Source: Pseudomonadota bacterium (lineage in GTDB: Bacteria > Bdellovibrionota > Bacteriovoracia > Bacteriovoracales > Bacteriovoracaceae). Taken from it: a stretch of DNA of 40,501 nt. This document shows, one piece after another, positions 15,011 through 34,037 of the stretch. The stretch spans positions 1 to 40,501 of the forward strand of contig JAIXOY010000093.1 in NCBI GenBank assembly GCA_027486525.1, given 5' to 3'. How positions within the stretch are numbered: the first letter of the stretch is position 1; each line of letters starts with the position of its first letter. The notes beneath the pieces are model-generated. The model was not told the origin of the DNA and did not search any database. It saw only the letters and a program-made list of their open reading frames with translations. The position numbers and the translations under genes are program-made.

Positions 15011-15460
15011 TTACTTCGCGACGTGGGCGACGAAATCGCCCACAAAACGGCACAGCACTTCCCCGCTGCTGTCGACGATCTGGGAAGAAATCTTCAAGCG
15101 CGCCACACCCTTCCTATCCACATGCCGTAACATTCTTTCGATCAGGGCCCCATCAGGTGGGCTGCAGATTGCGCGCAGATCTCCCGTGACGGGTTTTAAG
15201 TAATCGGTCTGAGCGGTCTGAATCACCACATGGCAGTTCTTCCCGTCCTCTCCCAAGCGATTAAACATCCAGGCGTAGCACGCAAGAATCATTACCGAGC
15301 CAAGACTGCCGCCGAAGGCGGTGCCGAGGTGATTGCGGTTAGCTTCGAGTGGTGCTGTCAGCTCCACTCCCTCAGCGCTGAGACTCACGACCTGAATTCC
15401 CAAGGCCTGGGCGATGGGGATCTGGGCGCAGAGATACTCTTTGAGCTCGAGCGGTTTCAA
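15011..15460 (-). CDS. Hotdog-fold thioesterase (YiiD C-terminal type)
   Basis: 149 residues. It is a hotdog fold of the YiiD/PaaI class: a long central helix following [15 protein letters not shown], then strands [21 protein letters not shown] and [28 protein letters not shown]. It would hydrolyse an acyl-CoA thioester. The start codon is TTG at 15460, overlapping the acetyl-CoA synthetase stop by four bases (TTGA), so it is the second gene of an acs operon. Its substrate is not evident; pairing with acs suggests it may keep free CoA available or limit acetyl-CoA build-up, which is inference. Confidence 0.85.
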
Positions 15461-17394
15461 TGACGGGCCTTGTGTTCATTCACAAGGGCATCCACCACAC
15501 TTGGATCCGCGAGGGTACTGAGATCACCCAACCCGCTGTACTCGGCGGCCGCGATCTTGCGAAGAATACGGCGCATGACCTTCCCCGAGCGAGTTTTCGG
15601 TAGGCCCTTGGTGACATGCACTTTATCGGGAGCGGCAAAGCGTCCGATGCTGTTGCGAACACTGTCTTTGATCGTTTCTAAGAGTTCGGGGGATTCAGTT
15701 TGGTTGGGATAAAGCACCACGTAAGCGTAGATGCCCTGGCCCTTGATGTCGTGCGGGTAACCCACCACGGCCGCCTCTACGACCGCCTCATGCTCAACCA
15801 GAGCGCTTTCTACTTCGGCTGTGCCCAGTCGGTGACCCGAGACGTTCAACACGTCGTCAATGCGGCCTGTGACCCAGTAGTAACCGTCTTCATCGCGCTT
15901 GCAACCATCGCCGGTAAAATAGAGGCCTTTGTACTGCGAGAAATAGGTTTCTTTGAAGCGCGCGTGGTCTTTGTAGATCGTGCGTGCTTGACCGGGCCAT
16001 GAACGTTTGAGGCAGAGAGCGCCTTCCACGCCATTGCCGTGCAACTCTTCGCCAGTCTCTGGCCTTACCAGTAGCGGCTCAACGCCGAAGAATGGAAACG
16101 TCGCGGAACCTGGCTTCGTGGGCGTCACTCCTGGCAGCGGCGTCATGAGAATGCCGCCCGTCTCGGTTTGCCACCACGTGTCCATGATGTCACAGCGACC
16201 TTCGCCCACGACGTCGTGGTACCACTTCCAAATTTCAGGATTGATCGGTTCACCGACGCTCCCAAGGATGCGCAACGAAGAACGATCGTATTTGCGCACA
16301 ATCTCGTCGCCCATCTGGGCCAGAGCACGCAACGCCGTCGGCGCGCCGTAAAAGATGTTCACTTTCAAGTCTTGGATGATCTGCCAGTAACGGCCCGCAT
16401 CCGGATAGTTCGGCACGGATTCAAACAGCACGCAGGTCGCCCCATTTGAGAGCGGGCCGTAGACGATGTAGCTGTGACCTGTCACCCAACCGATGTCGGC
16501 GGCGCAGAAGTACACGTCTTCTTCGTGGTAATCAAAAACGTACTGATGGGTATAGCTGGCATACGTGAGGTAACCACCCGTGGTGTGCAGGACACCCTTC
16601 GGTTTCCCCGTCGAGCCTGAAGTGTAGAGAATGAACAAGGGATCTTCCGCATCGTGGGCCGGACACGGGGCCACGGGACGGAACTTCTGAATCTCGTCGT
16701 TCCACACCACGTCCACGGAACGAGGAGTCCAAGGCGTTAAGGTACGGTTGACGACAAAAACTTTTTCGACAAATTTGATGTCTTTAACCGCATCGTCAGT
16801 GATGGCCTTGAGTGGGATCGGCTTTCCACCGCGCAGGCCTTCGTTGGCGGTGATGATGACTTTGCATTCCGCATCTTCAATCCGACCACGCAAAGCTTCG
16901 GCACTGAAGCCACCAAACACAACGGAGTGAACCGCGCCGATCCGCGCACAGGCCAGCACGGAGTAGACGAGCTCGGGAATCATCGGCAGGTAGATGCAGA
17001 CGCGGTCACCTTTTTTTACTCCATGGGCTTCCAGCATGTTGGCCGCGCGACAAACTTCTGCATAGAGCTCTTCGTAACTGATGTGCTGGTACTCGCCGGG
17101 ATGATCTTTCGCCCAGATTAAAGCTGTTTTTTTTGCGCGATGAGGGAGCTGCCGATCCACACAGTTCCATGATGCGTTGAGCTTTCCGCCGGTAAACCAC
17201 TGATGATTCACGTGATGAAAATCTCCGCGGCCAGCTTCAATAGGCGCCGTGAACCAGTCTAAACGTTGGGCCACGTCCAACCAGAACTTCTGGGGCTCTT
17301 CAAGTGAGCGGCGGTAGAGGTTTTGGTAAACGGCCATATCCTTCAAATAAGATTTATCTTGTACTGCGGCTTTGACGGGATAGGTATCGGCCAT
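15457..17394 (-). CDS. acs: Acetyl-CoA synthetase
   Basis: 645 residues, full length for Acs. It activates acetate with ATP and CoA in two steps through acetyl-AMP. Visible signatures: [14 protein letters not shown] (AMP/ATP loop), [13 protein letters not shown] (acyl-binding Trp loop typical of acetate-specific enzymes), [20 protein letters not shown] hinge, and [11 protein letters not shown] with Lys605, the lysine known in Acs to be acetylated to switch the enzyme off. The ATG at 17394 has GAGGAG six bases ahead. It is divergent from the MerR/B12-type regulator gene and co-transcribed with a thioesterase. Confidence 0.97.
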
Positions 17395-17486
17395 GAGTGC
17401 TCCTCGGGAATAAACAATGCGTGGTCTATTAAATAGTAAAAAAACTTATCAGGCCAAAAAGTGCTTTTTTTCATAGCATTGGCATC

Positions 17487-18419
17487 ATGTCGTTATTCAA
17501 TATTCATATCGCATCGCAGCTATCTGGCGTTGCGGCTGCGACCATCCGAGCTTGGGAAAAGCGCTACAACGTCCTCACTCCCCAGCGCGCGGACAATGGC
17601 CATCGCCTCTACTCTGAAGCCGACATCGAAAAACTCTCCATCCTCCAGCAACTGACACAGCAGGGACTTTCCATCGGAAAGATCGCCGCTCTCTCAAACG
17701 AGGACTTGAAACAGTTACTGAAAGAAAACGAACTCACGTCGATCGAGCTCTTCTCGACGAATGACAAGGACCTCATCGACATGGACGCGTTGAGGAGCGG
17801 CATCATGCTGGCGCTCTCGGCGTATAAGCTCGACATCATTTCTCACGAACTGGAGAAAGTGAAAAAGACGCTGAGTCCCCGCGACTTCGCGCTCGAAGTC
17901 ATCGTACCGCTGTTTCGGGAGATCGGGATCCGTTCCATGAACGAGACCCTGTCGATTGCGCAAGAACACACCCTGACGGCGATCGTGCAGTTTCACATGG
18001 GCCAGATGATTGCGAAGCACTACGTGCGCCAGCAGCTGCGCCCCGGACTCATTCTACTGGTCGCACCTGAGGGCGAGTTGCACGAGATTGGACTGATGGC
18101 CGCGTGCCTCTTATGTATTGAGTACAACGTGCAGTTTTTATTTTTGGGTAAAGACATGCCGGCCGATGCCATGGCCGAAACCATCAATCAACTTCGACCA
18201 ACGTCCGTGCTTTTTGGCGTCACCAAAGGTCATGAAATCACCGAGCGTCTCACGCTGCAAGACTATCTGAAAAAACTCAAAAGTTTGCTGACTGTGAATG
18301 TACAATTACGTGTGGGCGGGAACATTAAGCCCTGGGTGGCCACAGAGATCAAAACTCTCGGGGTGGACCACTTGCCCACCCTCGAAAGCCTCGATAAGTA
18401 TCTCAGCGAGTTTCGTTAA
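17487..18419 (+). CDS. MerR-family regulator with cobalamin-binding domain (CarH/LitR-like)
   Basis: 310 residues. Residues 3-55 are a MerR winged helix (IHIASQLSG.A..TIRAWEKRYNVL, then G-H-R-L-Y-S-E-A-D-I). Residues ~100-180 are the four-helix cap and ~185-305 the Rossmann B12 domain with E-x-H199-x-x-G202, S240-V-L, and G277-G278. In light-sensing CarH the cap carries W-x9-E-H; here E160-H161 remain but the Trp is Ser150 and the next residue, the upper His in CarH, is Met151. So B12 binding looks possible while the known photochemistry does not. The promoter region is shared with acs, the most likely target. No clear ribosome site is seen ahead of the ATG. Confidence 0.85.
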   Translation: MSLFNIHIASQLSGVAAATIRAWEKRYNVLTPQRADNGHRLYSEADIEKLSILQQLTQQGLSIGKIAALSNEDLKQLLKENELTSIELFSTNDKDLIDMDALRSGIMLALSAYKLDIISHELEKVKKTLSPRDFALEVIVPLFREIGIRSMNETLSIAQEHTLTAIVQFHMGQMIAKHYVRQQLRPGLILLVAPEGELHEIGLMAACLLCIEYNVQFLFLGKDMPADAMAETINQLRPTSVLFGVTKGHEITERLTLQDYLKKLKSLLTVNVQLRVGGNIKPWVATEIKTLGVDHLPTLESLDKYLSEFR

Positions 18420-31369: not shown

Positions 31370-32346
31370 TCGCTTCCTTTTTTCATCCAGAAACTGAGTG
31401 TGCGTATAAATGAGGGACGACCCGGACGGCCCAGGGCGGTCCCAGCCGTCAAGCGCAGGAAAGCCCGATTCGTCAGCGGCAGCACCGCACTGGCGATCTC
31501 GGCATAGGGCCGATCAAACCAGCTGAGCCACTCGCGCGCACGCGCTCCGAGGTGGGGCCTGACGTGAGCGATGGGCTTCTGATTCCACGGGCAAACATCT
31601 TGGCAGATGTCGCAGCCAAACACTTCTCCGCGCGCGCTTTCCGTTCCAACCGGTGCCGGCGTGTCGGCACTGCGGTCTTCGATGGTCCAGGTGGAGATAC
31701 ACTTGGAGACAACCAAGGTTCTCGTTTCAAGATTGATGGCGTCTGTGGGGCACGCATCAACGCAAGCGCGGCACTGGCCGCAGTGATCGGCGGAGAGCGG
31801 ACCCGTCTCGAGGGCGAGCTCTTGGTCGAAGATCAACGACCCCAGCATGAAATAGGAGCCGTGCTGGCGACTGATGAGCAACGCATTCTTGCCAAACCAT
31901 CCGAGGCCCGCACGGTAAGCGAGATCTCTCTCGAGGATGGCTTCGGTATCATGGGAATGGCGAAACTGCAGCGGAAGCTTTTCTTGGAGCCGGCGACCGA
32001 TGAGGTGCAAGCGCTCTTTCATGACCGTGTGGTAATCCTCACCGTCAAAGCCCAACGCATAGCCCGCCACGCGGAACTGTTTTTCTTCCAGCAACGCTTT
32101 TTTCGCCGGAGCATAGCTAAAAAGAAACACCACGGCCGAGCGAGCATGAGGCCACCACGCTTTTAAGTCGGAGCGGTAGTTGATGTTTTTTTCCAGCGCC
32201 ATGAAGGGCAGCTTCGCGCCATTTTCAGGAAGCCAATTTTTAAAGTTCGTAAAAGACCGTGGAACGGTTTCGGAGGTGTAACCCCAATCAACAATGCCAA
32301 GCTCAGAGAGTTCGGCCGCTGATATATGAAGAAGATCTTTCATCAT
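31366..32346 (-). CDS. queG: Epoxyqueuosine reductase
   Basis: 326 residues. QueG reduces epoxyqueuosine to queuosine in tRNA using cobalamin and two 4Fe-4S clusters. Visible: Asp133 (the general acid, E. coli Asp134) in HDTEAILERDLAYRAGLGWFG, cluster Cys residues C189-x2-C192-x2-C195-x3-C199-P and C245-x2-C248-x3-C252-P. It is shorter than the B. subtilis enzyme because it lacks the C-terminal HEAT-like repeats. The start overlaps the pyruvate kinase stop (ATGA), so the two are translated together; no separate ribosome site is seen. Its tRNA substrates would be those with GUN anticodons. Confidence 0.95.
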   Translation of the reverse strand: MMKDLLHISAAELSELGIVDWGYTSETVPRSFTNFKNWLPENGAKLPFMALEKNINYRSDLKAWWPHARSAVVFLFSYAPAKKALLEEKQFRVAGYALGFDGEDYHTVMKERLHLIGRRLQEKLPLQFRHSHDTEAILERDLAYRAGLGWFGKNALLISRQHGSYFMLGSLIFDQELALETGPLSADHCGQCRACVDACPTDAINLETRTLVVSKCISTWTIEDRSADTPAPVGTESARGEVFGCDICQDVCPWNQKPIAHVRPHLGARAREWLSWFDRPYAEIASAVLPLTNRAFLRLTAGTALGRPGRPSFIRTLSFWMKKGSE

Positions 32347-34037
32347 TCAAAAGGAATGATTTCGATGGCACCGGTGGGACAAACACGCACGCACTCCATA
32401 TCCAGAGTACAACGTTCAACGCGAGAGGCGTCGATGCGAGTTTCGTGATGGTTCTCTTTGCTCACGGTCCAGATGTGATGTGGACAGATGGCGACACAGG
32501 ACTGGCATGAAGCGCAGACCACCGTATCAAGTAGGAGCTTTCCCCGAGCGAAGCCCACCTCCTGAACCGAGTCTTGGTGACCGGTCGCGATGGCTTTAGG
32601 AACGTCTTTGATGATCTCAACGCGAATCGAGTTGGTGGAACCTTGCTGGAAGTATTTCCCATCGCCCATGGTGATCACGACTTTGTCGCCATTCACGAGA
32701 CGGCCCTTCTCTTTCAAGCTCTGCAGCATGCTGCGCTCAAGCAGGGCCATGTCTCCATCCGCAGGCATCTCGACGTAGTACGGAGAGATGCCCCAGTAGA
32801 GCGCCATACGACGCACGACCTTAAGAGAGTTCGTCACGCCGAGAACATGGTTCTTCGGACGAAATTTTGTCATCTGCAAACAGGACTTCCCCGACTCGGT
32901 GATCGAAAGGATCCAGCGAGCGTGGGTCTTCTCAGCGATGATGCTGGCCGCGACCTGAGTCGAGGCACTCACACTGGAAATATCCATATGGCGAAGCAGC
33001 GGTCTTTCCCGTGGCATTCTTTCTGCTTCGATAACAATCTGGTCCATCATAATGACGGTCTCTACAGGGTAAGCCCCCGAAGCCGTTTCACCGGAAAGCA
33101 TCACGCAGTCCGTGCCATCCCACACCGCGTTCGCGACGTCAGAGGCTTCTGCGCGCGTCGGGCGTGGATTCGTGATCATGCTCTCGAGCATCTGCGTGGC
33201 GGTGATCACCGGTGTCCCGGCTTCGTTACACGCACGGATAAGTTCTTTCTGAATGGCCGGCACAAGATGGTTCCCCACTTCCACGCCCATGTCGCCACGA
33301 GCGACCATGATCATGTCCGTGACTCCCAGAATCTCTTTGATATTTTCAACGGCTCCCGGTGTCTCGATTTTTGAGACGATGGGAATGTCCACTTTCATTT
33401 TGTGGAGCAAGCTCTTCACTGCAAGAATGTCCGCTGCGGTACGCACGAAACTCAGGGCGACGTAGTCGACGCCTTGCTTGAGTCCAAACATTAAGTCTTC
33501 GTGGTCTTTGTCTGTGTAAGATGGCGCGGAAACTTTCACGTTCGGCAGGTTGATGCCTTTGTTACTCTTGAGGGCTCCGCCAACCTTCACGCGAATTTTC
33601 AAGAGATCACCAAACTTCTCAATGGCCTCGGCTTCTAACAAGCCGTCATCGAAAAGGATTTGCGCGCCAACGAAAGAATCTTTCACGAGGTCTTGGTAAA
33701 CAGTTGGAATGGAACGGGCCGCATACTCAGGATGCTTTGCGAGTTCGGCTTTCGTGCCAATCACCCACTCTTCACCAGCCGCGAGCTGCAGCGGCGCCGG
33801 AACTTTATCCACACGGATCTTCGGGCCCTGGAGATCGAGGAGAATGGCGACTTCACGACCCGCCTGGCGGCTGGCTTCGCGAATGTTGGCGATGCTCTTA
33901 GCATGATCCTCATGCGTCCCGTGAGACATGTTGATGCGCGCGGAGTTCATTCCCGCGTGAATCAACTTCACGAGCATGTCGATGGTGCTGGACGAGGGTC
34001 CGATGGTGGCTATGATCTTGGCGCGACGTAAAGGCAT
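32343..34037 (-). CDS. pyk: Pyruvate kinase fused to a C-terminal ferredoxin-type domain
   Basis: 564 residues, about 90 longer than ordinary pyruvate kinase. Residues 1-475 are the normal enzyme: ARINMSHGTH (ADP/PEP), DLQGPKIRV, SKIETPGA (catalytic Lys), VARGDMGVEV (metal Asp/Glu), TATQMLESM, and DGTDCVMLSGETASG. Residues 506-560 are a ferredoxin domain: C508-x2-C511-x2-C514-x3-C518-P, then C543-x2-D546-x2-C549-x3-C553-P, where Asp replaces the expected second Cys. The reading frame is continuous. In ferredoxins such an Asp makes a labile cluster (known in Pyrococcus furiosus). The fused domain may sense redox state or dock a partner; this is inference. It is transcribed with the coiled-coil gene upstream. 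Confidence 0.92.
   Translation of the reverse strand: MPLRRAKIIATIGPSSSTIDMLVKLIHAGMNSARINMSHGTHEDHAKSIANIREASRQAGREVAILLDLQGPKIRVDKVPAPLQLAAGEEWVIGTKAELAKHPEYAARSIPTVYQDLVKDSFVGAQILFDDGLLEAEAIEKFGDLLKIRVKVGGALKSNKGINLPNVKVSAPSYTDKDHEDLMFGLKQGVDYVALSFVRTAADILAVKSLLHKMKVDIPIVSKIETPGAVENIKEILGVTDMIMVARGDMGVEVGNHLVPAIQKELIRACNEAGTPVITATQMLESMITNPRPTRAEASDVANAVWDGTDCVMLSGETASGAYPVETVIMMDQIVIEAERMPRERPLLRHMDISSVSASTQVAASIIAEKTHARWILSITESGKSCLQMTKFRPKNHVLGVTNSLKVVRRMALYWGISPYYVEMPADGDMALLERSMLQSLKEKGRLVNGDKVVITMGDGKYFQQGSTNSIRVEIIKDVPKAIATGHQDSVQEVGFARGKLLLDTVVCASCQSCVAICPHHIWTVSKENHHETRIDASRVERCTLDMECVRVCPTGAIEIIPFE

Follow-up and report, generated by a model that had tools for sequence, protein, structure and literature searches.

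The locus raises the question of what signal is read by a CarH-like regulator that keeps a cobalamin site, has no tryptophan in the cap over that site and faces a gene of acetate activation. We analyzed the window, a stretch of 40,501 nucleotides from a Bacteriovoracaceae genome (Bdellovibrionota), in which the regulator and its partner are located as follows.

15457..17394, minus strand: acs, acetate-CoA ligase, divergent partner of the regulator (TIGR02188)
17395..17486, no strand: divergent intergenic region of 92 bp, presumed operator and promoters, without an 11-bp TnnACA repeat
17487..18419, plus strand: MerR-family regulator with a CarH-type cobalamin-binding domain, 310 aa (Pfam, NCBIfam, PDB, AF2/Foldseek)
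17499..17693, plus strand: MerR winged-helix DNA-binding domain, residues 5-69 (Pfam MerR_1, residues 6-69, 6.6e-16)

Both family and fold bear out the assignment as a CarH-like regulator made in the earlier note. The protein has the N-terminal MerR DNA-binding domain by which CarH and class I LitR are recognized. It matched the NCBIfam CarH model NF052513 (3.1e-21, 75.9 bits, below the equivalog cut-off of 400 bits) and PDB CarH 5C8D (1.8e-15 by HMMER). The AlphaFold2 model had a pLDDT of 85.5, and its best Foldseek matches were all TtCarH, with full-length Thermus thermophilus CarH on top. The isolated cobalamin domain of the model gave a TM-score of ~0.8 (target-normalised) against TtCarH, and a complete Rossmann subdomain was observed at residues 189-307. 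The relatives in named genomes are Bacteriovoracaceae MAGs (Bdellovibrionota), of which UBA6144 is the closest (62%).

The regulator faces acs, as had been proposed. The acs gene was confirmed by TIGR02188 (944 bits; cut-off, 725), the two genes diverge over 92 bp and the arrangement is conserved in 23 species. The acs orthologous group was defined as homologs with at least 44% identity, giving 23 species after de-duplication. All of these orthologs are divergent from acs (23/23), whereas homologs below ~42% identity are not.

Elsewhere in the window (32343-34037, minus strand), a pyruvate kinase has a 4Fe-4S ferredoxin-like domain fused at its C-terminus (CASCQSCVAICP ... CTLDMECVRVCP). In most of the searched genomes of the same family, full-length matches include the ferredoxin part, and matches in other families mostly stop before it. 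In G017, this part is a separate adjacent ORF.

The residues of the cap and of the cobalamin site are listed below; those marked (alignment) were positioned by ungapped HMMER alignment to TtCarH (5C8D/3WHP).

17934..17939, plus strand: cap position, Ser150-Met151 where TtCarH has Trp131-His132 (alignment)
17964..17969, plus strand: E160-H161, the EH of Wx9EH, TtCarH E141-H142, invariant in 23/23 of the acs group (alignment)
18075..18092, plus strand: E197-L-H199-E-I-G202, lower axial ligand motif, with E, H and G invariant in 23/23 of the acs group (alignment)
18147..18161, plus strand: GxxxP, G221-P225
18216..18224, plus strand: G244-V-T246 at the canonical SxT/V column, Gly for Ser (motif spacing)
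18315..18320, plus strand: G277-G278, GG motif, invariant in 23/23 of the acs group

The alignment confirmed that the cap Trp is replaced by Ser150 (TCC, 17934-17936) and the adjacent His by Met151 (ATG, 17937-17939), as the earlier note had read them, and that the cap E160-H161 is kept. Thus, where CarH has Wx9EH, the regulator has S150-x9-E160-H161, with EH and its spacing but no Trp. The CarH counterpart of E160 hydrogen-bonds the adenosyl group. TtCarH E175-x-H177-x-x-G aligns with E197-L-H199-E-I-G202. The cobalamin motifs had been described as intact, and this holds for E-x-H-x-x-G and G-G. However, the S-x-L motif had been misplaced at S240-L242. The published B12 motif is ExHx2Gx41SxV/T (PMC8156234), and because the x41 counted from G202 ends on 244, the canonical Ser column is Gly244 and not S240, which is conserved in just 3/23 acs-group orthologs. 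Compared with ExHx2Gx41SxV/Tx22-27GG, the regulator has ExHxxG, x41 and GG, with Gly244 for Ser and a GG spacing of 30 instead of 22-27. This Ser is also missing from many Trp-bearing homologs. GxxxP, a signature element of cobalamin photoreceptors (PMC11796333), is present at G221-P225, and the second signature element, GxxH, at G196-E-L-H199. The ten scored B12-site residues were 100% invariant in the 23 acs-linked orthologs, against a domain mean of 0.68; none of 20,000 random draws matched this (0/20,000).

With CarH and class I LitR (Thermus thermophilus, Bacillus megaterium), the regulator shares the MerR domain, the four-helix cap and the Rossmann B12 domain, together with EH, ExHxxG, GxxxP and GG; relatives in its branch have 11-bp TnnACA direct-repeat operators. 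It differs from them in having no Trp before x9-EH, no His132 and Gly for the Ser of SxT/V, and its partner gene is acs, where theirs are carotenoid or photolyase genes. CtMerR (Chloracidobacterium thermophilum, 8JBS) has the same cobalamin-domain fold and also no His132, yet is photoactive; unlike the regulator, it has the Trp (Trp156). CarA (Myxococcus xanthus) likewise keeps the B12 motif and EH without the Trp. However, CarA falls in another clade of our tree, its Trp region is missing whereas here it is substituted by a conserved Val/Ile (Ser in the window), it dimerises independently of B12, and its site of action, shared with CarS, is a carotenoid promoter. Class II LitR with a short LOV protein (Pseudomonas PplR/PmlR2) is also of the MerR family, and relatives of the regulator resemble it in their light-gene neighbourhood and, in some without the B12 site, in a nearby LOV-motif gene. 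However, class II LitR keeps only the four-helix bundle, whereas the regulator has a complete Rossmann B12 domain. The regulator is outside CarH as defined by Wx9EH, is not a class II LitR, and is similar to CarA in its residues but, as far as the tree shows, not by descent.

The Trp is missing from 110/112 non-redundant Bdellovibrionota homologs, in which the Trp column contains V 85, I 10, S 3 and W 2, plus others. In the named-genome scan, Trp was present in 54/77 non-redundant loci. Most of the Trp-less loci carry Bdellovibrionota-type titles (Bacteriovoracaceae, Oligoflexia and similar); the others are two CarA-like myxobacterial paralogs and a few with different titles. When the 211 domain columns were ranked by conservation across the phylum, the Val of the Trp column was 20th and the His132 column 205th. 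Thus, the Val is a residue in its own right and not debris of loss. A private loss of the Trp is ruled out, as Trp is missing phylum-wide and Val/Ile is conserved instead. In the acs group, residue 150 is Val or Ile in 21/23 orthologs, and Ser150 is private to the window species and its sister species; L006, a congener at 89%, also has Ser. Ser150 is a recent change inside the acs group. EH or the ligand His was absent in 20/112 of the phylum homologs.

The Met at the position of His132 was rejected as a sign of lost photochemistry. In CtMerR, SasPcob and AbDPcob, all of them proven photoreceptors, the Trp is followed by R, Q or Y (PMC11796333), and the His132 column is among the least conserved of the domain.

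In a tree of 95 rows, built with the trait columns left out, the Trp/not-Trp distribution was explained by three changes only. The CarA-like rows were nested in the Trp clade, apart from the Bdellovibrionota rows, in a short search with long branches and an unsure deep order. Orthology with CarA was without support in this quick tree. At L080 (Pyxidicoccus) and L091 (Archangium), there are two CarH-like genes per locus, one Trp-bearing and one CarA-like with a gap at the Trp column. The best reading of these comparisons is that the regulator would belong to an undescribed Val-type CarH/LitR subfamily typical of Bdellovibrionota, in an acs-linked subgroup.

The genes near Trp-less homologs code for DNA photolyase, GTP cyclohydrolase I, lipocalin, TIGR01777/DUF1731-type SDR, lycopene cyclase and polyprenyl synthase. 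SDR and lipocalin genes are tied to the LitR-type light regulon. In P. putida, class II LitR governs the light induction of folE, phrB and cryB (PMC9758184). We counted photoprotection genes within 1.5 kb of each homolog. A photolyase, folE, lipocalin, SDR or crt gene was found near 59/79 Val/Ile-type homologs with an intact B12 site outside the acs group (L056, L067, L074, L068 and L132-L218, among others), in contrast to 0/23 in the acs group (Fisher p ~2e-11). Such a gene was near 9/54 Trp-type homologs, a comparison that is biased because the query genes were chosen from Val-type loci. In the loci not used in that choice, 41/53 Val/Ile-type homologs have a photoprotection neighbour.

Four homologs without the ligand His, L062 and L063 (Arg) and L017 and L057 (Ser), adjoin or lie near a gene that encodes the LOV photo-cysteine motif NCRFLQ, an arrangement like that of class II LitR with a short LOV protein.

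L062, 6908-7495: LOV-motif gene
L063, 6899-7498: LOV-motif gene
L017, near 3835: LOV-motif gene
L057, near 4584: LOV-motif gene

At L044 (4034-4645), a PAS/LOV-like gene without the Cys (GRNLAFLQ) is next to a site-intact homolog. The window genome also possesses a second CarH-like paralog (L039, G000:C161:15646-16422), which adjoins an SDR gene and has counterparts in the congeners L035-L038. In this paralog, L035-L039, EH and ExHxxG are degenerate, yet 11-bp TnnACA repeats are upstream of most copies.

Mainly because the Val-type relatives look light-related, we doubt that loss of the Trp means loss of light sensing. The earlier argument that the light-sensing residues are lost, and with them the photochemistry, is unsupported: the Trp is absent phylum-wide, Val/Ile is conserved, photoprotection genes are neighbours and the His is variable in photoreceptors.

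The operators bound by CarH are tandem 11-bp repeats that contain TnnACA (PMC9304148). TnnACA pairs at a spacing of exactly 11 were found 33 times upstream of Trp-less homologs, and pairs at each other spacing tested 0-5 times. A second, later-fetched set gave 39 pairs at spacing 11 against 0-7 elsewhere, and a blind lag test also picked out 11. With the strict pattern, the repeats were detected upstream of 40/79 Val/Ile-type homologs, 11/20 site-lost homologs and 0/23 members of the acs group. Thus, the DNA-binding mode of the family resembles that of CarH, as judged from the Val/Ile-type relatives. Since 11/20 site-lost homologs keep the repeats, DNA binding in the family need not depend on cobalamin.

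No 11-bp repeat was found in 17395-17486 of the window (p = 0.94; PWM scan, p = 0.2-0.6). In the acs intergenic regions of two congeners, a lag-11 repeat is real (L008, 21/22 matches, 0/300 shuffles; L009, 15/22, p = 0.003), and it forms a degenerate triple 11-bp repeat with a different sequence. In the DNA-binding domain, the acs group differs from the repeat-bearing members by Ala for His at residue 18 and His for Arg at residue 39, changes that would fit an altered operator. One half-site is present in the intergenic region of the window.

17411..17416, plus strand: lone TnnACA half-site TAAACA near the acs start, a weak lead only

Three congeners have a half-site in a comparable position (TGAACA, TAGACA and TAGACA). 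In the acs intergenic regions of related genera (L010, L144, L149, L151, L152, L159 and L052, L166, L182), a conserved 12-bp element, CTTCATTTAAAG / CTTCTTTTCCAG, lies ~30 bp before the regulator start. An extended -10-like TATGnTAAAAT comes next, near the regulator ATG, so placed that a leaderless transcript is possible. A palindromic operator in CTTCATTTAAAG, suggestive by eye, was rejected, as inverted-repeat scores were no better than those of dinucleotide shuffles.

The window genome encodes a PduO-type adenosyltransferase and MetH; a methylmalonyl-CoA-mutase-type protein with a MeaB-type GTPase and an IcmF-like fusion were also read from the sequence. Since an adenosyltransferase and enzymes of both the MeCbl and AdoCbl types are encoded, both coenzyme forms should be present, and the organism appears to use both.

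The regulator may still sense light. AdoCbl under the Val/Ser cap would be photolysed, relieving or imposing control of acs, and the Trp would be dispensable in this branch. We regard this as a real possibility, though short of probable. The photoprotection neighbours, also frequent in the loci outside the query choice, and the light-induced genes of P. putida point to it, as do the LOV-motif genes, which are placed as if LOV had replaced B12. Furthermore, the Co-C bond of AdoCbl is inherently sensitive to light. However, photoprotection genes are absent from the surroundings of the acs group, and neighbourhood is indirect evidence. In TtCarH, the stacking of Trp131 on adenosine stabilises the tetramer and is the means by which AdoCbl drives its formation (PMC10442372); the Wx9EH motif has been termed critical (PMC8156234). 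The AdoCbl-driven oligomer of CarH comes apart on illumination. With AdoCbl as the ligand, a cap that has Val or Ser for the stacking Trp must therefore work in another way. The idea of the earlier note, that acs tracks the supply of AdoCbl or another cobalamin by form or level without light input, seems somewhat doubtful. It agrees with a B12 site that is invariant though the Trp is gone, with a neighbour that is metabolic rather than light-related, and with the apparent use of AdoCbl and MeCbl enzymes. However, no B12-dependent step ties directly to Acs, the wider Val branch looks light-related and, to our knowledge, no member of the CarH family senses cobalamin form or level without light.

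It is unlikely that the regulator is independent of B12, with a pocket that is retained but unneeded, and answers to a partner protein. CarA of M. xanthus is the precedent: it keeps the B12 motif and EH without the Trp and flanking residues, binds B12 and works without it (PMC8156234, PMC9304148). The repeats upstream of homologs without EH or the ligand His are consistent with such a mode. However, that the site is unchanged in all 23 species argues for its use, and the CarA-like L080b and L091b have a gap at the Trp column and no conserved Val. Since these two fall inside the Trp-bearing clade, their lack of Trp is a separate loss. Something other than these three takes what little probability remains.

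On balance, we favor, with modest confidence, a cobalamin-bound MerR-type factor of the Val-type CarH/LitR branch that controls acs, with the state of the cobalamin setting acs expression. Binding of cobalamin by the regulator is very likely, and its control of acs is likely. In the working that we propose, Val or Ile (here Ser) takes the place of the cap Trp and the remaining cobalamin site is kept. The cobalamin, most likely AdoCbl, would be bound His-on through H199 and covered by the cap helix bearing E160-H161. Its state (adenosyl present, or lost via light or low supply) would set oligomerisation and DNA binding, and hence acs expression. The regulator would act on the divergent acs, and probably on itself, through the 92-bp intergenic region. 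The CarA precedent, the Gly at the canonical Ser, the repeats kept by site-lost homologs and the lack of an identified operator in the window's acs-regulator intergenic region count against this explanation. A wider proposal, which is tentative, is that Bdellovibrionota possess a phylum-wide Val-type class of cobalamin photoreceptor transcription factors that function without the Trp regarded as essential for CarH, one branch of which was recruited to acs with control by light or by AdoCbl and a new operator.

We know of no earlier link between cobalamin state and acetate activation, and among the literature searched no paper connecting them was found; the link would be the first. Published work takes the Trp of Wx9EH as a defining mark of CarH photoreceptors and screens databases for further members by it (PMC8156234, PMC11796333). 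Should AdoCbl binding and a light response be properties of the Val-type proteins next to photolyase, folE and crt genes, a screen by Trp overlooks most of a phylum. Otherwise, these proteins are an example of a light regulator turning into something else with its cofactor site retained. The acs branch, with one regulator, one conserved target and an invariant cofactor site, is a clean test case.
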